A DNA stretch of 64,000 nt from Rhodospirillaceae bacterium. Lineage in GTDB: Bacteria > Pseudomonadota > Alphaproteobacteria > SHVZ01. The notes under the pieces are model-generated. The model was given only the letters and a program-made list of their open reading frames with translations. It was not told where the DNA came from and ran no database searches. The translations under genes were made by a program, and so were the position numbers. Shown piece by piece: positions 35,205-62,898 of the stretch. Each line of letters opens with the position of its first letter. Position 1 is the first letter of the stretch. Location: the NCBI GenBank assembly GCA_016792585.1, contig JAEULB010000048.1, forward strand, positions 1 through 64,000. Direction: 5' to 3'.

Positions 35205-36566
35205 ATGACCGCCCCCGACGCGAGCCCGACGACCCGCCGCGGCGTGCGATCCGTCGCCGTCAGAGGCGTCATCGCCTTCCTGGTTCTCCTTGCCGTCGTC
35301 GCTGGTGGCGCGGTCGCCCAGCGCAAGGCCGTCGAAAATCTTGGAGAGCCGGCGGTGGCCGTCAGCCTTTCCGGCTGGCTCGGCACGCTCGCGGTGAAGG
35401 CGAGCCTCGCCGCCCGCGATCTCACGTCTCCCGACGACGGCGTGCGCAGCGAAGCGCGCATCCGGCTCGCGGTCGTCCTCGACGAGATGCAGCAGCAGCG
35501 CCAGCGCCTGGCGCGCCGCGCGCCCTTGCCGGCCGACGTGCAGGGCGCCCTCGACAATTTCCTCACCGCCGGGCGCGCTCTCGTCGACATCGAGGCGGCC
35601 GATGTCGCCGAGCGGCCGGTCTACCGCACGATCGCGGAGCTGGGTCCTGAGCGCCTGCCGGCGCTTCTCGATCGACTGGCAGGTCGCAACGAGGCCGAAG
35701 GGCGCGCGCGCGCCGAGGTCGTGACGCAGGTCCAATATGCGACGGCCGCCGCCGCGCTGCTGGTGCTCCTGCTGTCGGCATTGGCGATCTCCCCGGCGAT
35801 CCGCCGTGCCCGAGACGAGGTCAGATCGCTCGAAGACGAAGCGGCCAGGCTCACCGTCGGCTCGGCCGCGGCGGATGCCAGCCGCCGCGACCTCTCCCAG
35901 TTCCTTCTCCGGCTCGAGCAGACGCTGGCGGCGGCAGTCAAGACGGTGGTCGGCCTTTCCGACGTGCTGGCGCTGGGCGCCGCCGGGCCGCTCAACGACA
36001 AGCAGCGCGAATACGCCCAGCGGATACGCGGCGACGGCCAGCGCCTGGCGCAGCTGCTCGAGGATGTCCACGACCTGGCGCTGATCGACGCCGGCCAGCT
36101 CAAGCTCGACGAACGCACGATCGACCTCGGGCCGTTCATCGCGCAGACGCTGGACCAGATGCGTGGCCAGGCCGACCGCAGCCGGATCGCGCTGATGCAC
36201 AGCCTGCCGGTCGACATGCCGCGCCTCTCGGCCGATCCGAGCCGGCTCCGCCAGATGATGCGCCGCCTGCTCGACTTGGCGATCCGGGCCGGAGAGAGCG
36301 GCGGCCAGGTCCATGTCCGGGTCGCGCGCGAGCCGTCCGGCGGCCTCGCGCTCTCAGTCGAGAGTGCGAGCCAGGGCTTCGGCCATCCGGATGCGGAGGT
36401 GGCGCTATCGCGCGCCGAAGGACCGGGCGGGGCTTCGGCGCTGACCTTGCCGCTGGTGAAGGCGCTGGCGGAACGCCACGGCGGCCGGATGAGCGTCGGT
36501 CCGGCGCCGGGTCGCGGTTCGGTCGCGACGCTTCACTTCCCCCCGGCCCGGACGATCGCGGCCTAG
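35205..36566 (+). CDS. Membrane histidine-kinase homologue with lost catalytic residues (pseudokinase)
   Basis: A 453-residue protein with two membrane segments (residues about 18-38 and 178-197) enclosing a periplasmic domain. It then has HisKA-like and HATPase-like regions. The HisKA core aligns well around GLSDVLALGAAGPLNDKQ, EYAQRIRGDGQRLAQLLEDV and IDAGQLKL, but the phosphoacceptor histidine position is Q239 and the following proline is Ala. The N box reads RRLLDLAI (Asn replaced by L358), and the DxGxG and GLGL boxes are absent although HGGRMSVGPAPGRGS is kept. It is probably a regulatory pseudokinase. No response regulator is adjacent. The stop is shared with the convergent cyclase at CTAG. 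Confidence 0.88.
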   Translation: MTAPDASPTTRRGVRSVAVRGVIAFLVLLAVVAGGAVAQRKAVENLGEPAVAVSLSGWLGTLAVKASLAARDLTSPDDGVRSEARIRLAVVLDEMQQQRQRLARRAPLPADVQGALDNFLTAGRALVDIEAADVAERPVYRTIAELGPERLPALLDRLAGRNEAEGRARAEVVTQVQYATAAAALLVLLLSALAISPAIRRARDEVRSLEDEAARLTVGSAAADASRRDLSQFLLRLEQTLAAAVKTVVGLSDVLALGAAGPLNDKQREYAQRIRGDGQRLAQLLEDVHDLALIDAGQLKLDERTIDLGPFIAQTLDQMRGQADRSRIALMHSLPVDMPRLSADPSRLRQMMRRLLDLAIRAGESGGQVHVRVAREPSGGLALSVESASQGFGHPDAEVALSRAEGPGGASALTLPLVKALAERHGGRMSVGPAPGRGSVATLHFPPARTIAA

Positions 36567-37741
36567 GTGCCGGCCGGGGCGAACGCCTCGCGCTCGCCGG
36601 CGATGCCCTTGAAGCTGTGGCGGCCGAGCGGCCGCATCTCGGTCGCCGCTGCCTTCGCCGCTTCGGCCGACAGCACGATCTGCTCGCCGAGCGGCTTGCA
36701 GAGCTGGGCGAGCCTGCTCACCAGGTTGACCGCGGGCCCGATCACGGTGAAATCGAGCCGCTCGGGCGCGCCGATGTTGCCGTACATGACCGGCCCCAGA
36801 TGGACCGCGATGCCGCAGCGGATCTCGGGATAGTTGGCGCCGGCGCGCTCGCCGCTGATGGCCGCGAGCTTGGCGACCAGGGACCGCGAGGCGGTGAGCG
36901 CGCGGGTCGCCGCGTCGCCGTCGCCGTTCTCGCAGCGGAAGATCGCGAGGATGGCGTCGCCCATGAACTTGAGCACCTCGCCGCCGGCCTCGGTCACCGA
37001 TTCGACCGCGGCGGAGAAGTAGGTGTTGAGAAGGCCCAGCATCTCATCGCGCGCCAGGCTTTCCGAAAGGGACGTGAAGTTGCGGAGGTCGCACCACCAG
37101 ACGACGGCGCGCACCGTGTGGCCGACGCCCTGCACGACCTCACCGTTCAAGATCCGCCGCGTCGGCTCGGCGCCGACATAGGTGTTCATCAGCCCTTCGA
37201 TCGACCGCCGGCTCGCGTAGATCTGGCCTATCGCCGCCAGGGCCGGCACGGTTGCATCGAGAAGCTTGAGGTGATCCGGCTGGAATCCGTCCGGATGGTC
37301 CGAGCCGTAAGTGACGATGCCGCCCTGTAGCCTAGGCCCCATGTCGAGCGGCATCACGTAGTAGTCGGTAAGCCCCTTGTCGCGCAGCTCTTCGAGAACT
37401 GGAAAGTCGAACTCGGCTTCCGGCCCGACCAGTCGGCGGCGAAGCGGCTCCCGCGTCCGCATGACCTGGGCGATCGGGCTGTGGGAGAAGACGCGTGAGC
37501 CCATCAGGTCTCGTCGGCGCGCGATGTCGCGCGCCGGCGTTCCTCGGACCCATTCGGACGTCGACGCTCGGTAGACCGGATGCAGATGGGTCATGGTCAG
37601 GCCCATCCGAAACAGCGGCACGCCGCCCTCGATCAGGCGCTCGGCGGCTTTTTCGACGAATGCGGTCGATGACTCGAAACGTCCGCCCTCGGTCAGCAGC
37701 CATTTGGTGATGGCCGATGCGGGCGTCGCGGCTGCGCTCAC
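36563..37741 (-). CDS. Class III adenylate/guanylate cyclase, soluble
   Basis: A 392-residue protein starting GTG 37741, which overlaps the nuclease-like TGA by 4 bases (GTGA). The longer open frame above that overlaps the nuclease gene and looks like a shadow. Residues about 1-200 form a soluble sensor-like region with no obvious match (possibly GAF-like), and the catalytic domain starts near 210. Metal aspartates are D218 in WWCDLRNFTSL and D262 in KFMGDAILAIF. The GIAVHLGPVMYGNIG and TVIGPAVNLVSRLA segments are typical of class III cyclases. Predicted product is cAMP, since most bacterial homologues make it. Confidence 0.9.
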   Translation of the reverse strand: MSAAATPASAITKWLLTEGGRFESSTAFVEKAAERLIEGGVPLFRMGLTMTHLHPVYRASTSEWVRGTPARDIARRRDLMGSRVFSHSPIAQVMRTREPLRRRLVGPEAEFDFPVLEELRDKGLTDYYVMPLDMGPRLQGGIVTYGSDHPDGFQPDHLKLLDATVPALAAIGQIYASRRSIEGLMNTYVGAEPTRRILNGEVVQGVGHTVRAVVWWCDLRNFTSLSESLARDEMLGLLNTYFSAAVESVTEAGGEVLKFMGDAILAIFRCENGDGDAATRALTASRSLVAKLAAISGERAGANYPEIRCGIAVHLGPVMYGNIGAPERLDFTVIGPAVNLVSRLAQLCKPLGEQIVLSAEAAKAAATEMRPLGRHSFKGIAGEREAFAPAGT

Positions 37742-38250
37742 GTGCCGGGCTTGGGAGGTTGCGGGTGCGGCGGGCGCACGGGCCGCGGTCGGGGGCGAAC
37801 GATCACGTCGACCGGTTGTCCCCAGATGCCGACGCGTCGCGATTCCGCCAGCCGCTCCCACTGCACGTACTCGAACGGCGCATCCTGCCCGGCCATCGCC
37901 CAGCCGTTCAGCACCATCCAGCCGCCGAGATCCTCGCCGAGAACGGTGCAGCGCCCGAGCATCGCGCCCGCGTCGTCGCGGCCGAGATCGCGACAATGCA
38001 CGAACTCCGAGCCGATCTTGCGCGTGAGCTGCAGAACCGACCGCGGACCGCAGGCGCCCGGCATGTCGGTCGAGTTGCAGATCCTATCCGAGGGAGGGAT
38101 CGAGACGCCGTGAAGCCGTACGTGCCGTCCGTTGACCGAGAGGCTCCCGTCGTCGAGCACGCGAGCGTAGCTGGTCAGGTCTCCGCGCGCGGGAACCACG
38201 GCCGTCAAGGCGATCGCGGCAGCAGCGCAGAGGATCCGGATACGGGTCAT
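37738..38250 (-). CDS. Exported thermonuclease (SNase-like) family protein
   Basis: A 170-residue protein with a signal peptide (MTRIRILCAAAAIALTAVVPARG). The SNase fold is suggested by ARVLDDGSLSVNGRHVRLHGVSIP and the family's C-terminal RCTVLGEDLGGWMVLNGWAMA with WERLAESRRVGIWG. The tail is proline-rich (RPRPRPVRPPHPQPPKPG). The canonical catalytic Arg/Glu residues are not all evident, so activity is uncertain. It is coupled to the downstream cyclase by the GTGA overlap. Confidence 0.8.
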   Translation of the reverse strand: MTRIRILCAAAAIALTAVVPARGDLTSYARVLDDGSLSVNGRHVRLHGVSIPPSDRICNSTDMPGACGPRSVLQLTRKIGSEFVHCRDLGRDDAGAMLGRCTVLGEDLGGWMVLNGWAMAGQDAPFEYVQWERLAESRRVGIWGQPVDVIVRPRPRPVRPPHPQPPKPGT

Positions 38251-55018: not shown

Positions 55019-55735
55019 CTAGCGAATTTCCGCGAGATCGCCCGGCGGAGCGGGATTCGCCGCAATCTCGCGGATCAGCTTGTTGAGGATCGCGGTCTGG
55101 AACGAGTGGAAGTCGTCGGCGACGATCATGAACGAGCCGGGCCCGCCGATCACGTTCTTGACGTAGTACTCGTCCAGGTTCGGCTCGGCCGGAAGCCACG
55201 GGCTCGGCCGCTCGTTGACGATCGGCAGCCCGTTGATCGTGATGCCGAGCTTGAGCGCATCGTCCCGGGCTTCCGCGACGGGCCTTCCTGAGTTGTTCGA
55301 ACCGTCGCCGGAGATGTCGATCACCATCCGGTCGCTCTGGAACGGGCTTCGCTCGAACAGCACGATGGCGTAGTCGATAGCGCCCGAGATCGAGGTCCAA
55401 CCGGCAAAGGCGCGGGGGGCGGCGAGGATCGCCTCGGCGAACAGCGCGGCACTCTCGCCGTCGCTGATCCTGGTCCACTTGACGATCTGCCTCTGCAGAT
55501 GCGCGTTCGACCATTCCATGTAGGTGACGCCGATCGCGCGGTTGCCGCCCGAGGTGATCGAGGCGAGCACCCGCGGATCCCTGAGCGCGTTGGCGTAGCC
55601 TTCGCGCTGGAGCTGGAACTCCTCGTCGTCGACCGAGCGCGAGACGTCGACGGCGAGCACGAGCTGGAGATCGACGATCTCCGCCGCGGCGGGGCCGGAG
55701 AGCAAGACGAGGATGAGCGCGAAGAGGCGCCGCAT
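55019..55735 (-). CDS. DUF1194 von Willebrand A-like exported protein, second paralogue
   Basis: A 238-residue signal-peptide protein with MIDAS DVSRSVD (D30), TSISGAIDYAIVLF and VIDISGDGSNNSG. It closely resembles the copy at 51632-52336 along its whole length, including the C-terminal VIGGPGSFMIVADDF segment. Stop lies 4 bases from the convergent deacylase stop. It follows the DUF4864 gene by 5 bases on the same strand, so these two form an operon. Confidence 0.87.
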   Translation of the reverse strand: MRRLFALILVLLSGPAAAEIVDLQLVLAVDVSRSVDDEEFQLQREGYANALRDPRVLASITSGGNRAIGVTYMEWSNAHLQRQIVKWTRISDGESAALFAEAILAAPRAFAGWTSISGAIDYAIVLFERSPFQSDRMVIDISGDGSNNSGRPVAEARDDALKLGITINGLPIVNERPSPWLPAEPNLDEYYVKNVIGGPGSFMIVADDFHSFQTAILNKLIREIAANPAPPGDLAEIR

Positions 55736-55740
55736 CGTCG

Positions 55741-56181
55741 CTAAACTTCGTTTTCCGGCTCGGCCAGCATGCAGCCGTTGATGCGCCAGGTACCGTCGGC
55801 CTGCTTCTCCATCACGTAGAGCGCCAGCGCCGGCGCGCCGTCCGGTCCGGTGACGTGGACCTTCTGGACCAGCGCCGTCCCGTCCTCGACCAGATCGCCG
55901 AAGCGGACCGCGCGCGGCCGATAGACAGGTTGATAGCCGTTCCTGACCATCGCCATGAAGTTCTCGGCGCTGCGGAAGATCCGGCGGATGCTAGGCGAGG
56001 CATAGCCGAAGGCGCGCTCGCCATCGTCTGAACGGAAGGCGCCGATCTGCGCCTCGATCACCTGGCGGATGGCGCCCTGCTCGGCCGCCGGGAGGGTGGA
56101 CAGGGGCTGGGCGGCAACAGGCGTCGCGGCGAAGGTCGCGATCAGTGCCAGGACCAGGAACACCCGACCGAGCACGGTCAT
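55741..56181 (-). CDS. DUF4864 exported protein
   Basis: A 146-residue protein with a signal peptide (TVLGRVFLVLALIATFAATPVAA) and the DUF4864 domain: IRQVIEAQIGAFRSDDGERAFGYASPSIRRIF and YVMEKQADGTWRINGC. Function is unknown; the fold resembles NTF2-like proteins. ATG 56181 has a strong AAGGAGA site. The gene is immediately upstream of the DUF1194 paralogue. Confidence 0.87.
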   Translation of the reverse strand: MTVLGRVFLVLALIATFAATPVAAQPLSTLPAAEQGAIRQVIEAQIGAFRSDDGERAFGYASPSIRRIFRSAENFMAMVRNGYQPVYRPRAVRFGDLVEDGTALVQKVHVTGPDGAPALALYVMEKQADGTWRINGCMLAEPENEV

Positions 56182-56261
56182 CGGCGTCTCCTTCAAGCCA
56201 GCCCCCTTGAAAAGAAAGTGTGTCACCTCGCCGCCGACGTGGCCAGCGCGAATCGCGGCCT

Positions 56262-57968
56262 TCACGGCAGGTCGGACAGTCGCTTCACGACACGGACCGG
56301 AAGCACCTGGCTGCGGCCGCGGATCTCGATCTCATGGCGCTCGAACCGCGAGAGGTCGACCTTGGCCACGTCTTCCAACGCGGTCGAGACGACGAGCTCG
56401 GCCTGGAACTCCTTGGTCAGGGTCTCGAGCCGGCTCGCGGTGTTGACCGCATCGCCGATCGCGGTGACGGTCGTCGCGCGCGCATATCCCATCTCGCCGA
56501 CGATCGCCGGACCGAGATGGATGCCGATGCCGATGCGGAGCGGCTCGCTCAGGTCGGCGGACAGCGCACGGTTGAGCGCGGCGAGGCTCTCGCCCATCCG
56601 CTTGGCGGCGGCGATCGCGGTCTGGGCGCCCGCTTCCGGCGAGGAGTCGATGCCGAACAGTGCCATGATGCCGTCGCCGATGAACTTGTCGACGCGGCCG
56701 CCGGCCTCCTCGATCGCGCGCCCCATCTCGGTGAAGTAGCGGTTGAGCAGGAAGACGACGTCGAATGGCAGCTTGTGCTCGGAGAGGCGGGTGAAACCGC
56801 GGAGGTCGGCGAACAGGATCGCGATCTCCTTCTCGGCGCCGGCGACGTAGTTCGGGCGGCGGAGCGCTTCCTTGGGCGACGCGGTCGGCGGCAGCAGCGG
56901 CGCCACCTCGAGGTTCTGCGTCGGGCGGATCTGGCAGGCGAGGCGGACCTTGGGCGGGGCGGCGACCCGGTCGAGCACCTTCTGCTCCTCCGCTGTCGGC
57001 GGCGCCAGCAGCTCCGCCCCGTGTCCGAGGCGGACCCGGCAGGTCGAGCAGCGGCCGCGGCCGCCGCAGACCGAGGCGTGGGGGATGCCGGCTGTCCGGC
57101 TCGCCTCCAGCACGGTCATGCCCGGCTGGATGGTGACCATCTTCCCGTCGGGATAGGTCACGGTGGCGCCCTTGCCGCGACCCAGCCAGTCGCGGACCAC
57201 GCGGGCCGCCAAGGTCGCGCCGAGGAGGCCGAAGAAGGCGATCTTGAGCGCGGTGTCGATACGGTCGATCTCATCGGCGGCGGAGGCTGGCGGGAAACGG
57301 ATCGCCTGGGCCATCCGCCGCATCCAGGCCGGGTCGGTCGACATCAGGAGGACGGTGCGTCCCGAGACGCCGAAGCCGACCAGGGCCAGAACCGGCACCA
57401 GCAGCGCCGCGCCATAGAGAAAAGGAAGCAGGCGGGGGTACCAGGGCCGGAGACGGAGCCAGAAATGGAGCCCGATGCACGCATGCAGCCAGGCGATCAG
57501 CAGAACCGCCACCTGTTGGAGTGCGTAGCCGGGGGAGAACACCCACTGGACGAGCAGGACGTAGGTGTAGAGGTCCTCGAGCCCGTAGAACGTGTGGGCG
57601 ACCCGGGTGCCGAGGATGTGAATGAAGAGGAGGGGGGGGATCGAGAGACCAAGGAGCAGCTGGGCCGCTTCCCAGGGCGGCATCCGAAGGCTGCGCCGCC
57701 GGTAGAGCGCCACGAAGGCAAGGCCCAAATGGGTCCAGAGCGAGCCGTAGAGGGCCACCGTCATCGGCGGAAGCCGCCAGAACCACACGAAACCGCGCCG
57801 AGCCATCTCCAGGGCCTCCAGCGAGATCAGGCCCACGGCATGGTTGAGAAGATGAGTCGTCACATAGGTGAAAAGGACGAGCCCGGTAACCAGCCGGAGG
57901 CGCCGGATGACCAGGGGCCAGTCGGTCCCGGCCTCTGCGGCGCCCATTCCCAAGCCGGTACCTGTCAT
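56262..57968 (-). CDS. Class III adenylate cyclase with heme-type membrane domain and 2Fe-2S ferredoxin domain
   Basis: A 568-residue membrane protein. Residues about 20-260 hold six or so helices like the SdhC/FrdC cytochrome-b anchor, with histidines H39, H43, H80, H117, H125, H162 and H168 as possible heme ligands. Residues about 268-360 form a plant-type 2Fe-2S ferredoxin domain with C301, C307, C310 and C345. Residues about 380-540 are the cyclase catalytic domain with metal aspartates D388 (LFADLRGF) and D432 (IGDGIMALF). A related enzyme without the ferredoxin, CyaC of Sinorhizobium meliloti, is a quinone-responsive diheme cyclase. Start ATG 57968. Confidence 0.92.
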   Translation of the reverse strand: MTGTGLGMGAAEAGTDWPLVIRRLRLVTGLVLFTYVTTHLLNHAVGLISLEALEMARRGFVWFWRLPPMTVALYGSLWTHLGLAFVALYRRRSLRMPPWEAAQLLLGLSIPPLLFIHILGTRVAHTFYGLEDLYTYVLLVQWVFSPGYALQQVAVLLIAWLHACIGLHFWLRLRPWYPRLLPFLYGAALLVPVLALVGFGVSGRTVLLMSTDPAWMRRMAQAIRFPPASAADEIDRIDTALKIAFFGLLGATLAARVVRDWLGRGKGATVTYPDGKMVTIQPGMTVLEASRTAGIPHASVCGGRGRCSTCRVRLGHGAELLAPPTAEEQKVLDRVAAPPKVRLACQIRPTQNLEVAPLLPPTASPKEALRRPNYVAGAEKEIAILFADLRGFTRLSEHKLPFDVVFLLNRYFTEMGRAIEEAGGRVDKFIGDGIMALFGIDSSPEAGAQTAIAAAKRMGESLAALNRALSADLSEPLRIGIGIHLGPAIVGEMGYARATTVTAIGDAVNTASRLETLTKEFQAELVVSTALEDVAKVDLSRFERHEIEIRGRSQVLPVRVVKRLSDLP

Positions 57969-58120
57969 GCTATCCCCCGCCGTCCGCCGGCCGCCCGAGG
58001 CTAACATACGGGCGGGGAACCGGATCGGATCCCCCTTGAATTCGGCTGTTGGCCGCCCAAATGGCGCCAAAATTCGATGGCAAGGGAGGCGAAGGGGTGG
58101 GAGCGACACAAGAGGGTGGC

Positions 58121-59056
58121 ATGGCCGAGATGATTGCGATCGACGGCCTCACGAAGCGTTTCGGGGCGCATACGGCTGTCGACGACATCTCGTTCTCGGT
58201 GAACCGGGGCGAGGTGCTGGGCTTTCTTGGGCCGAACGGCGCGGGCAAGTCCACGACGATGAAGATGATCACCGGCTTCCTGGCGCCGACGGCCGGCACC
58301 GCGAAGGTCTGCGGCTTCGACATCCAGGACAGCCCGATCGAGGCCAAGAAGAAGATCGGGTACCTGCCCGAGGGCGCGCCGGCCTATCCGGACATGACGC
58401 CCGCGGCGTTCCTCGACTTCATCGCGCGCGTGCGCAACGTCGACGGGGCGCTGCGCAAGCGCCGGATCGCCGACGCGGTCGAGAAGACCCAGCTCGGCGA
58501 GGTCCTCTACCAGTCGATCGACACGCTCTCGAAGGGCTTCAAGCGCCGCGTGGGCCTTGCCCAGGCGCTGCTGCACGATCCCGAGGTGCTGGTGCTGGAC
58601 GAGCCGACCGACGGCCTCGATCCGAACCAAAAGCACGAGGTCCGCGGCCTGATCAAGGCGATGTCCTACGACAAGGCAATCGTGATCTCGACCCACATCC
58701 TCGAAGAGGTCGACGCGATCTGCACCCGCGCGATGGTGATCGCCGGCGGACGCATCGTCGCCGACGGCACGCCGGTCGAGCTGGAACAGCTCTCGCGCCA
58801 CTACAACGCGGTTGCCGTCCGTCTCGAGGACGAGGCCGACACCGACGCGGTCAAGGCGGCGCTCGAGCGCGTCGACGGCGCGCTGTCGGTCGAGGCCAAC
58901 AAGTACGCCGGCGTGCTCACCGTCTATCCGAAGGACGCGCGCTCGCTGATCGCCGAGGTCGGCCAGGTGATGCGCCATGGCCGCTGGAAAGTCGCCGAGA
59001 TCCGCGTCGAGCGCGGTCACCTCGACGAAGTCTTCCGCCGCATCACGCAGGCCTGA
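58121..59056 (+). CDS. ABC transporter ATP-binding protein (GldA-like)
   Basis: A 311-residue ABC ATPase: Walker A GPNGAGKST (37-45), degenerate signature LSKGFKRRVGLAQALL and VLVLDEPTDGLDPNQ Walker B. The C-terminal roughly 70 residues are an extra domain as in GldA/NatA. ATG 58121 with AGAGGG is chosen over earlier frame openings that run into the divergent cyclase leader. First of four genes in a closely packed module. Confidence 0.92.
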   Translation: MAEMIAIDGLTKRFGAHTAVDDISFSVNRGEVLGFLGPNGAGKSTTMKMITGFLAPTAGTAKVCGFDIQDSPIEAKKKIGYLPEGAPAYPDMTPAAFLDFIARVRNVDGALRKRRIADAVEKTQLGEVLYQSIDTLSKGFKRRVGLAQALLHDPEVLVLDEPTDGLDPNQKHEVRGLIKAMSYDKAIVISTHILEEVDAICTRAMVIAGGRIVADGTPVELEQLSRHYNAVAVRLEDEADTDAVKAALERVDGALSVEANKYAGVLTVYPKDARSLIAEVGQVMRHGRWKVAEIRVERGHLDEVFRRITQA

Positions 59057-59072
59057 GGGGCTAGAGCCTAAA

Positions 59073-59804
59073 ATGGGTATCTACACGATCTTCCGGCGCG
59101 AGCTGACCAGCTACTTCCTGACGCCGCTCGCCTACATCTTCATCGTCATCTTCCTGGCGATGGCCGGCACCTTCACCTTCTTCGTCGGCAACTTCTTCGG
59201 CCGCGGCCAAGCCGACCTGCAGCCGTTCTTCCAGTTCCACCCCTGGCTCTACCTGTTCCTGATCCCGGCGATCACGATGCGGCTCTGGGCCGAGGAGCGG
59301 AAGACCGGCTCGATCGAGCTCCTGCTGACGCTGCCGATCTCGATGACCGACGCGGTGCTCGGCAAATTCCTCGCCGCCTGGTGCTTCACCGGCATCGCGC
59401 TCGCGCTGACCTTCCCGATGTGGATCACCGTCAACATCCTGGGATACCCGGACAACGGGGCGATCGTCGCCGGATACGCCGGCAGCTTCCTGATGGCCGG
59501 CAGCTTCCTCGCGGTCGGTGCGGCGATCTCGCCGCTCACCAAGAACCAGGTGATTGCCTTCGTCGTCACTTCGGTCGTCTGCTTCGTCTTCACCGTCGGC
59601 GGCACCGGCGTCGTGCTCAACTTCTTCACCGGCTGGGCGCCGACGCTCGTGGTCGACACCGTTGCGCAGATGAGCTTCATGACCCACTTCAACGCGATCT
59701 CGCGCGGCGTCATCGACGCCCGCGACATGGTCTACTTCGCCTCGGTGATCGGGTTCTTCCTGTTCGCCAACGTCATCTTCGTCGACCTCAAGAAGGCGGG
59801 CTGA
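59073..59804 (+). CDS. ABC transporter permease (GldF-like)
   Basis: A 243-residue ABC-2-type permease with six helices, starting IFRRELTSYFLTPLAYIFI. RLWAEERKTGSIELLLTLPIS is the conserved cytoplasmic loop of GldF/NosY-like permeases. It partners with the ATPase 16 bases upstream and with the auxiliary protein that begins 3 bases downstream. Confidence 0.92.
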   Translation: MGIYTIFRRELTSYFLTPLAYIFIVIFLAMAGTFTFFVGNFFGRGQADLQPFFQFHPWLYLFLIPAITMRLWAEERKTGSIELLLTLPISMTDAVLGKFLAAWCFTGIALALTFPMWITVNILGYPDNGAIVAGYAGSFLMAGSFLAVGAAISPLTKNQVIAFVVTSVVCFVFTVGGTGVVLNFFTGWAPTLVVDTVAQMSFMTHFNAISRGVIDARDMVYFASVIGFFLFANVIFVDLKKAG

Positions 59805-59807
59805 TCG

Positions 59808-61775
59808 ATGCCGAACGATACTCCCCGTTCGAGCGGCGCGGTGGCGGCCGGCGCCTCCAAGAGGCTCAGCGCCAGCGCCCGCCGTTCCTTCGCGTGGGCC
59901 GCGCTCGTGGCCGGCCTGGTGCTCTTCCTCGCGGTCAACGTGCTCTCCAACGCCTGGCTCCGCGCCGGCCGCGTCGACCTGACCCAGAGCAAGCTCTACA
60001 CGCTCTCGGACGGCACCAAGGACATCCTGTCGAAGATCGAGGAGCCGATCACGCTCCGGCTCTTCTTCTCGCCCAGGCTCGGCCGCGAGATCCCGCTCTA
60101 CGCCAACTATCACCAGCGCGTGCGTGACCTGCTGGACGAGTACACCAGCCTCGCCGCGGGCAAGATCAAGCTCGAGTTCTACGACCCGGCGCCCTATTCC
60201 GACGTCGAGGACCGCGCTGTCGCCTATCGCCTTCAGGGCGTGCCGATGGAAGCGGGCGGCGAGCAGGTGTTCTTCGGCCTTGCCGGCACCAACTCGACCG
60301 ACGACGAGGAGATCCTTCCCTTCTTCCAGCCGGAGCGCGAGCGCTTCCTCGAATACGATCTCACCAAGGTCGTCTTCAACCTCGCCAACCCGAAGCGCCG
60401 CGAGGTCGGCCTGATCGCGCAGCTACCGGTCGCCGGTGACGTGATGCCGATGGCCGGCATGCGCATGCCGCAGCCCTGGGTCGTCATGGACCAGATGCGC
60501 CAGGTCTTCCAGGTGCGTCAGTTCGGCAGCGACACCGGCAACCTGCCCAAGGATCTGCAGATCCTGATGCTGATCCATCCGAAGGAGCTGTCGGAGGAGG
60601 GCCAGTACGCGATCGACCAGTTCGTGCTGCGCGGCGGCAAGCTTCTCGTCTTCGTCGATCCGAACTCCGAGGTCGACGCCTCGCGCCCGAGCCGCGATCC
60701 GAACGCGATGCCCGGCCCGACCTCGTCGAACCTCGAGAAGCTGTTCGACGCCTGGGGCGTCGAGCTGGTCAAGGACCGGGTGATCGGCGACCGGCTCACC
60801 GCAACCCGCGTCAATGCCGGGACCCAGCAGCGCCCGCGCGTCACCGACTACATCGTCTGGAACAGCCTGAAAGCCGGCAACCTGAACCGCCAGGATGCCG
60901 TTACCGGCGAGCTCCAGGTGATGAACGTCGCCTCCGCCGGCATCCTCAAGCCGAAGCAGGGGGCGACCACCGCCTTCGCGCCGCTGGTGACCGCGAGCCC
61001 TGGCTCGATGTCGGTCGAGACCGACAAGATCAAGTTCGCTCCGGATCCGACCCAGCTTCTTCGCGACTACAAGCCCGAGACCGAGATCCTGACGATGGCG
61101 GCCCGCATCACCGGGCCGGTCAAGACCGCGTTCCCGGACGGCCCGCCCAAGGTCGAAGGCCGCCCGCCGCAGCCCGACCAGCTGCCGCACGTGGCCGAGA
61201 GCGCGGGCCCGATCAGCGTCATCGTCGTCGCCGACACCGACATGCTGGACGACCGCTTCTGGGTCTCGGCCCAGGAGTTCTTCGGCCAGCGCGTGGTGCA
61301 GCCGAACGCCAACAACGGCGACTTCGTCGTCAACGCGCTTGAGAATCTGGCAGGCGGCTCCGAGCTGATGAGCCTCAGGAGCCGCGGCGTCTCCTCGCGA
61401 CCGTTCGAGCTGGTGCAGGACATCCAGCGCGAGGCCGAGCGCAAGTTCCGCTCCAAGGAGCGCGAGCTTCAGGAGAAGCTGAAAGAGACCGAGAAGAAGC
61501 TCTCCGACCTGCAGACCAAGGAGCAGGCGGGCGGCGCCACGATCCTTTCCGCCGACCAGCAGAAGGCGATCGAGGACGCGCGGAAGGAGATCCTGTCGCT
61601 CCGCCGCGAGCTGCGCCTGGTCCAGAACGACCTGCGCAAGGACATCGACCAGCTGGAGACGACGCTCCGCGTGACCAACATCGGCCTGATCCCGGTGGTG
61701 GTGGCGCTGGTCGCGATCGTGCTCGGCCTGGTCCGCATCACGCGCCGCCGCCGGCGCGCGACTGCGTTGAGCTGA
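59808..61775 (+). CDS. GldG-like ABC transporter auxiliary protein
   Basis: A 655-residue inner-membrane protein with one N-terminal helix (residues about 28-48), a large extracytoplasmic domain of the GldG/ABC_transp_aux type (DLTQSKLYTLSDGTKDILSK onward), a coiled coil at about 540-625 (RKFRSKERELQEKLKETEKK) and a C-terminal helix (about 632-650). In Bacteroidota GldFG with GldA supports gliding, but homologues in non-gliding bacteria are uncharacterised. Substrate unknown. Confidence 0.9.
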   Translation: MPNDTPRSSGAVAAGASKRLSASARRSFAWAALVAGLVLFLAVNVLSNAWLRAGRVDLTQSKLYTLSDGTKDILSKIEEPITLRLFFSPRLGREIPLYANYHQRVRDLLDEYTSLAAGKIKLEFYDPAPYSDVEDRAVAYRLQGVPMEAGGEQVFFGLAGTNSTDDEEILPFFQPERERFLEYDLTKVVFNLANPKRREVGLIAQLPVAGDVMPMAGMRMPQPWVVMDQMRQVFQVRQFGSDTGNLPKDLQILMLIHPKELSEEGQYAIDQFVLRGGKLLVFVDPNSEVDASRPSRDPNAMPGPTSSNLEKLFDAWGVELVKDRVIGDRLTATRVNAGTQQRPRVTDYIVWNSLKAGNLNRQDAVTGELQVMNVASAGILKPKQGATTAFAPLVTASPGSMSVETDKIKFAPDPTQLLRDYKPETEILTMAARITGPVKTAFPDGPPKVEGRPPQPDQLPHVAESAGPISVIVVADTDMLDDRFWVSAQEFFGQRVVQPNANNGDFVVNALENLAGGSELMSLRSRGVSSRPFELVQDIQREAERKFRSKERELQEKLKETEKKLSDLQTKEQAGGATILSADQQKAIEDARKEILSLRRELRLVQNDLRKDIDQLETTLRVTNIGLIPVVVALVAIVLGLVRITRRRRRATALS

Positions 61776-61785
61776 GGAGCCTCAT

Positions 61786-62898
61786 ATGAAGCCTCGGGCC
61801 TTCTACATCCTGCTCGGCGCGACGGTGATCGTCACCTCGGCCGCAGCCCTCACCGCTTGGCAGCGCGCCGCCGCGACGCTCGGCACGGTCGCGGCCGAGA
61901 CGGTGGTCCCGGGACTGATCAACCGGGTCAACGACGTCGCCACGATCGAGGTCGTCAAGGGCAAGGACCAGATCAAGGTGCAGCGCACCGCCGACGGCTG
62001 GGTCATGCCTGACCGCGGCGGCTATCCGGTCAAGTTCGAGACGGTGAAGCAGAACATCGTCACGATGGCGGAACTCAAGACGGTCGAGCCGAAGACGGCG
62101 AAGGCCGATCTCTACAGCCGCATCGAGGTCGAGGATCCGGCCGGCGCCGACACCAAGTCCTCGCAGATGACCTTCAAGGACGCGGACGGCAAGACCATCG
62201 CCTCGATGGTTATCGGCCGGAAGCGCTATGCGCCCATCGGCGGCAAGGACATGGTCTATGTCCGCAAGCCCGGCGAGAGCCGCGCCTGGCTCGCCGAGGG
62301 TACCTTCGAGATCCGCACGCCGGCGCCGGAATGGCTGGTGAAGGAAATCTCCGGCATCAAGGATGAGCGCTGGAAGACGTTGACCTTCATCCAGGCGGAC
62401 GGCGCCAAGGCGGTGATGTTCCGCAAGGACGATCCGAACGCGCCGAAGCCCGAGTCCAAGGACGGCCCGCCGGAGATCTGGGAGGTCGAGGGCCGCCCGA
62501 CCGAGCGCGCGCTCCGTCCGCCGGCGACGGTCAGCTCGACCGCGTCGGCCTACAACTTCCTCAACCTCGACGACGTTCGCCCGGCCAAGGAGGTCGAGGA
62601 CGGTACGCCCAAGGCGACCTCCGAATTCGTCGCCTTCGACGGCCTGATCATGAAGTCGAAGATGGTCGAGAAGGGCGACGCCACCTGGACGATCTTCGAG
62701 GCGTCGACGACGGTCGACGCCATACAGGCGATCAAGCTCGAGGCGGCGGAGCTCAACAAGAAGCTCGCCGGCTGGGCCTACAAGCTGCCGGAGTACAAGC
62801 AGAACTTCCTGTCCCGCAAGTTCGACGACCTGGTCGAGCCGGTGCGCAACACCGAGAAGAAGGAAGAAGAGCCGAAGACCGAGCCGAAGGGCGGCTGA
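61786..62898 (+). CDS. DUF4340 domain protein
   Basis: A 370-residue protein with an N-terminal membrane anchor (FYILLGATVIVTSAAAL) and a DUF4340 extracytoplasmic domain whose repeats read like VAEIEVVKGKDQIKVQRTADGWVMPD. It is the last gene of the GldA/GldF/GldG module and ends in a charged Lys/Glu tail. Such proteins nearly always travel with this ABC module. Function unknown. Confidence 0.85.
   Translation: MKPRAFYILLGATVIVTSAAALTAWQRAAATLGTVAAETVVPGLINRVNDVATIEVVKGKDQIKVQRTADGWVMPDRGGYPVKFETVKQNIVTMAELKTVEPKTAKADLYSRIEVEDPAGADTKSSQMTFKDADGKTIASMVIGRKRYAPIGGKDMVYVRKPGESRAWLAEGTFEIRTPAPEWLVKEISGIKDERWKTLTFIQADGAKAVMFRKDDPNAPKPESKDGPPEIWEVEGRPTERALRPPATVSSTASAYNFLNLDDVRPAKEVEDGTPKATSEFVAFDGLIMKSKMVEKGDATWTIFEASTTVDAIQAIKLEAAELNKKLAGWAYKLPEYKQNFLSRKFDDLVEPVRNTEKKEEEPKTEPKGG

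Follow-up and report, generated by a model that had tools for sequence, protein, structure and literature searches.

Of the described systems closest to the gene considered here, the CyaC protein (SMc01818) of Sinorhizobium meliloti is the most direct comparison. According to the 2023 CyaC paper (PMC10463352), the protein contains two hemes b, undergoes a redox change by ubiquinone and is activated after oxidation by quinones, the legend of Fig. 6 marks a [2Fe-2S] cluster in CyaC itself, and the cyaC gene is described as flanked by LysR and TetR genes. A broader grouping was published in eLife in 2016 (PMC4821796), where a class IIIb cyclase group is defined by a four-histidine, fumarate-reductase-like anchor of six transmembrane (TM) helices, followed by a ferredoxin domain and then the cyclase; its authors regard this ferredoxin group as distinct because of the four heme-binding histidines.

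Results

The gene and its domains

The gene lies in the window, which is the whole stretch of 64,000 nucleotides that was analyzed, and has the following features.

56262..57968, minus strand: CyaC-type cyclase gene (six-TM diheme-type anchor, [2Fe-2S] ferredoxin domain and class III cyclase), 568 amino acids plus stop
57180..57920, minus strand: membrane anchor with six predicted TM helices, from an AlphaFold anchor model, a PDB fold match and conservation
56919..57149, minus strand: [2Fe-2S] ferredoxin domain, residues 274-350, from Pfam Fer2 and invariant cysteines
56304..56834, minus strand: class III nucleotide cyclase catalytic domain, residues 379-555, from Pfam, structure matches and a residue map

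The strand had not been given in the earlier sequence-only reading of this DNA. The ATG lies at 57968 and the stop codon at 56264-56262, and the choice of start is backed by a congener (L003) in which a stop codon closes the upstream frame shortly before the same ATG. Because full-length relatives occur both in four congeners (81-87% identical) and in other genera and families (38-66%), and because the GC content of third codon positions reaches 0.90 (compared with 0.48 at second positions), the minus-strand cyclase is a conserved gene and not a chance open reading frame. An overlapping plus-strand frame (56220..58004) was set aside, since the minus-strand frame is the strongly conserved one and carries the codon bias.

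The domain order in the single chain, as given by Pfam and the models, is that of the CyaC type: the six-TM anchor, then the ferredoxin domain, then the class III cyclase. The sequence-only reading had named an anchor with membrane histidines, a 2Fe-2S domain with four numbered cysteines and an intact cyclase, and all of this is borne out: six TM helices are predicted, the Fer2 (PF00111, E 1e-10) and Guanylate_cyc (PF00211, E 5e-20) matches both exceed their curated Pfam cut-offs, four membrane histidines are invariant, the cysteine numbering is exact and the catalytic residues are all there. The predicted model of the whole protein has a pTM of only 0.54, a modest value, and the placing of the domains relative to one another is therefore left uninterpreted.

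The membrane anchor

An AlphaFold model of the anchor, built from 48 anchor sequences, is confident (pLDDT 93.4, pTM 0.87) and consists of six long helices, corresponding to residues 17-47, 67-90, 98-128, 146-171, 177-209 and 228-263. Among the seven histidines that precede residue 170, only H39, H80, H117 and H162, which sit in TM1, TM2, TM3 and TM4 respectively, are invariant in all 101 readable homologues. The other candidate heme ligands were rejected: H125 and H168 both vary among these homologues, while H43 is near-invariant but is replaced in anchor-ferredoxin relatives that retain the other four histidines.

The top PDB match of the anchor model in Foldseek is subunit C of the Wolinella succinogenes quinol:fumarate reductase (QFR; 1e7p_C), with a probability of 1.00 and a TM-score of 0.57/0.60 but an E-value of 0.21, and subunit C of the D. 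gigas enzyme (5xmj_C) is also among the matches. Kinship to the succinate:quinone reductase (SQR) and QFR subunits is weak in the sequence itself, the best PDB sequence match having an E-value of 1.3. The SdhC b558 model TIGR02046 gives the window anchor an E-value of 0.14 and 11.8 bits, below its curated cut-off of 96, and is matched weakly but recurrently across the set (19 of 48 anchors at E-values up to 1, the best 0.0013). The anchor is predicted to have the FrdC/SdhC fold, that of the SQR/QFR diheme cytochromes b. It resembles FrdC (1e7p chain C, the diheme cytochrome b of QFR) in this predicted fold and in its four heme-type histidines. It differs in having no flavoprotein or separate FeS subunit, being fused instead to a ferredoxin domain and a cyclase, and, since FrdC has five TM helices, in an extra TM helix which leads to the ferredoxin domain.

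If the N terminus is inside, the depths read from the helix positions would put H39 and H117 in the outer half of the membrane, with H80 and H162 lying closer to the inner half. Loop charge fits this topology only partly: the positive charge of inner loops 2 and 4 and the negative charge of outer loop 3 are as expected, whereas the four basic residues of outer loop 5 are not.

The ferredoxin and cyclase domains

The predicted cluster ligands C301, C307, C310 and C345 show the spacing C-X5-C-X2-C-X34-C, which is the ISC/adrenodoxin-like ligand pattern, and none of the four varies in any of the 101 readable homologues. In the cyclase domain, whose closest structures are 1wc1 and then 2w01, the catalytic set of class III (IIIb) is complete, with D388 and D432 as the metal ligands, K428 and T502 as the purine pair, and N509 and R513 as the transition-state pair; D388, D432, T502 and R513 are invariant across the 101 readable homologues.

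The purine lysine is replaced by Gln (or Ala/Ser) in twelve anchored homologues (L017, L019, L020, L062, L081, L082, L089, L092, L102, L106, L113 and L115), in 8 of which His or Ser also takes the place of N509. A single branch holds eleven of the twelve, and bins labelled Rokubacteria, Nitrospinota and Betaproteobacteria are part of it. To judge from these substitutions, the proteins concerned may have a changed substrate or may have lost activity.

Relationship to CyaC and the published family

The comparison with CyaC was made via a homologue from Sinorhizobium sp. M103 together with the published S. meliloti numbering. The M103 protein aligns with the window protein over its full length (555 columns, 44% identity, E 4e-154), and carries a Fer2 domain; its gene lies between a LysR and a TetR gene, the arrangement reported for cyaC in S. 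meliloti. When its lysine is fixed at the published K410, T484, N491 and R495 fall exactly in place, and K428, T502, N509 and R513 of the window protein correspond to these four residues, each numbered 18 higher. A tree built from the ferredoxin-cyclase region places the Rhizobiaceae sequences within the same anchored family as the window protein.

The sequence-only reading had presented the ferredoxin domain as an insertion that set this protein apart from CyaC. This contrast was mistaken, because CyaC itself is marked with a [2Fe-2S] cluster (Fig. 6 legend, PMC10463352), because the 2016 paper (PMC4821796) had already described the anchor-ferredoxin-cyclase class as a whole, and because of the kinship to the Fer2-bearing M103 homologue and the position of the Rhizobiaceae sequences in the tree. 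The idea of a novel domain fusion was accordingly rejected; the literature and the homologue survey show the architecture to be known and common. What stands of the earlier interpretation are its domains and its proposal of redox or quinone control, with which the conservation, the predicted fold and the kinship to CyaC agree.

With the S. meliloti protein, the window protein shares the hexahelical diheme-type anchor, the [2Fe-2S] domain, the class III cyclase and the K/T/N/R register. With the ferredoxin-linked class IIIb adenylate cyclases designated 'Cluster 1' (PMC4821796; representative R. palustris Q132R4) it shares the four intramembrane histidines, the fumarate-reductase-like anchor, the ferredoxin domain, the class IIIb cyclase and a proteobacterial host; no difference of substance was found, although the family is now far larger than the 30 sequences then counted. 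On these sequence comparisons, the window protein is very probably an ordinary, orthologue-like member of the published CyaC family of redox-regulated adenylate cyclases.

Genome context

The window locus differs from that of S. meliloti in its neighbours. No CycR (TetR) or LysR gene lies beside the cyclase, so that the adjoining cycR expected for a CyaC-CycR-Clr complex is missing at this locus, and the Sinorhizobium TetR protein finds only a weak best match in the window genome (E 1.7e-8, N-terminal part only). Instead, the cyclase gene is followed immediately, on its own strand, by DUF4864 and DUF1194 genes (55019-56265, minus), which are possibly cotranscribed with it, and is adjoined on its other side by a divergent operon (58049-62898, plus) encoding an ABC ATPase, an ABC-2 permease, ABC_transp_aux and DUF4340. 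The DUF4864/DUF1194 pair was rejected as a conserved operon partner, as just 2 of the 80 loci have it beside the cyclase, and in these two the cyclase is 81-87% identical. The same divergent ABC arrangement is found in about 11 of the 80 homologous loci, several of which are from other genera such as Nisaea.

The genome has other cyclases alongside the CyaC-type gene, its Guanylate_cyc matches totalling ten; a second class III cyclase gene, without a ferredoxin domain, lies in the window itself (36563-37996, minus).

Distribution and natural variants

A search of 59 related genomes, in addition to the window's own, found full-length homologues in 19, and there are more in a larger named set. 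Of 289 Alphaproteobacteria sampled, 89 have a strong match, as do 45 of 299 members sampled from the phylum Pseudomonadota, although a minority of these matches are partial in their coverage of the protein; the survey of the architecture across genomes that had been proposed earlier thus finds it common. The anchor-ferredoxin part is present on 167 plasmid records, mostly from Rhizobium.

Two kinds of natural variant lack one module. Ferredoxin-cyclase proteins of about 310 amino acids without the six-TM anchor occur in other Pseudomonadota (L142, L143, L144, L145, L148 and L149), two of the six having longer, uncertain upstream frames; in the tree these form a separate, distant and well-supported group beside the anchored family. 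Anchor-ferredoxin proteins of about 380 amino acids without a cyclase (L146:1971-3095, minus; L147:1920-3080, plus) retain all four histidines and all four cysteines. A literature search for other FeS-cyclases returned no relevant match.

Discussion

By analogy with CyaC, the window protein most likely senses ubiquinone or the respiratory redox state and makes cAMP when oxidized. Two hemes b in the anchor, one held by H39 and H117 in the periplasmic half and the other by H80 and H162 in the cytoplasmic half, would come to redox equilibrium with the ubiquinone pool; the [2Fe-2S] domain, positioned in the cytoplasm after TM6 and before the cyclase, would relay or stabilize the heme redox state; the oxidized form would turn on the homodimeric class III cyclase; and the cAMP produced would act on a CRP-type regulator. 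Receivers for cAMP are plausible because the genome contains ten cNMP-binding-domain matches. For this particular protein we infer that the cofactors are bound, how the histidines pair on the hemes, what the FeS cluster does, in which direction regulation runs and that ATP and not GTP is the substrate; electrons may pass from the hemes through FeS to the cyclase, the 'wire' of the sequence-only reading.

A stronger form of this proposal, which we put forward tentatively, is that the [2Fe-2S] domain serves as an obligatory relay between the diheme anchor and the cyclase, in a modular family which also comprises the ferredoxin-cyclase and anchor-ferredoxin forms, the latter being possible quinone-linked electron-transfer proteins with another output. 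If this were true, an uncharacterized group of FeS-gated cyclases and an uncharacterized diheme-ferredoxin protein would be defined.

The [2Fe-2S] domain might alternatively be an independent input, responding to cytoplasmic redox state, O2, NO or a soluble reductase, while the anchor gives a second, separate signal. The existence of anchorless ferredoxin-cyclases in other Pseudomonadota (L142, L143, L149 and others) suggests that the FeS domain is able to serve a cyclase without heme, but those soluble proteins form a separate, distant group, and every one of the 101 anchored homologues retains both the four histidines and the four cysteines; we consider this account unlikely. It is far more doubtful that the anchor acts as a lipophilic-ligand receptor and not as a redox device. 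A receptor role is proposed in PMC4821796 for the anchors of six-TM cyclases in general, but the same authors set the ferredoxin group apart by its four heme-binding histidines; in the present family none of the four varies, and the anchor is predicted to fold like QFR subunit C. That the cyclase domain is degenerate and serves merely as a structural or binding module, as the related branch without the purine-binding lysine (K428Q and others), and sometimes without N509, might suggest, is scarcely credible for the window protein, which retains D388, D432, K428, T502, N509 and R513.

The window protein, as a most likely quinone- or redox-sensing cyclase, comes from an uncultured alphaproteobacterial lineage and adds one member to a sensor family that is widespread and already published. 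The role of its FeS cluster is a question for the whole family and is not specific to the window, and the natural variants that lack one module, which bear on the role of the FeS unit, could make that question testable.
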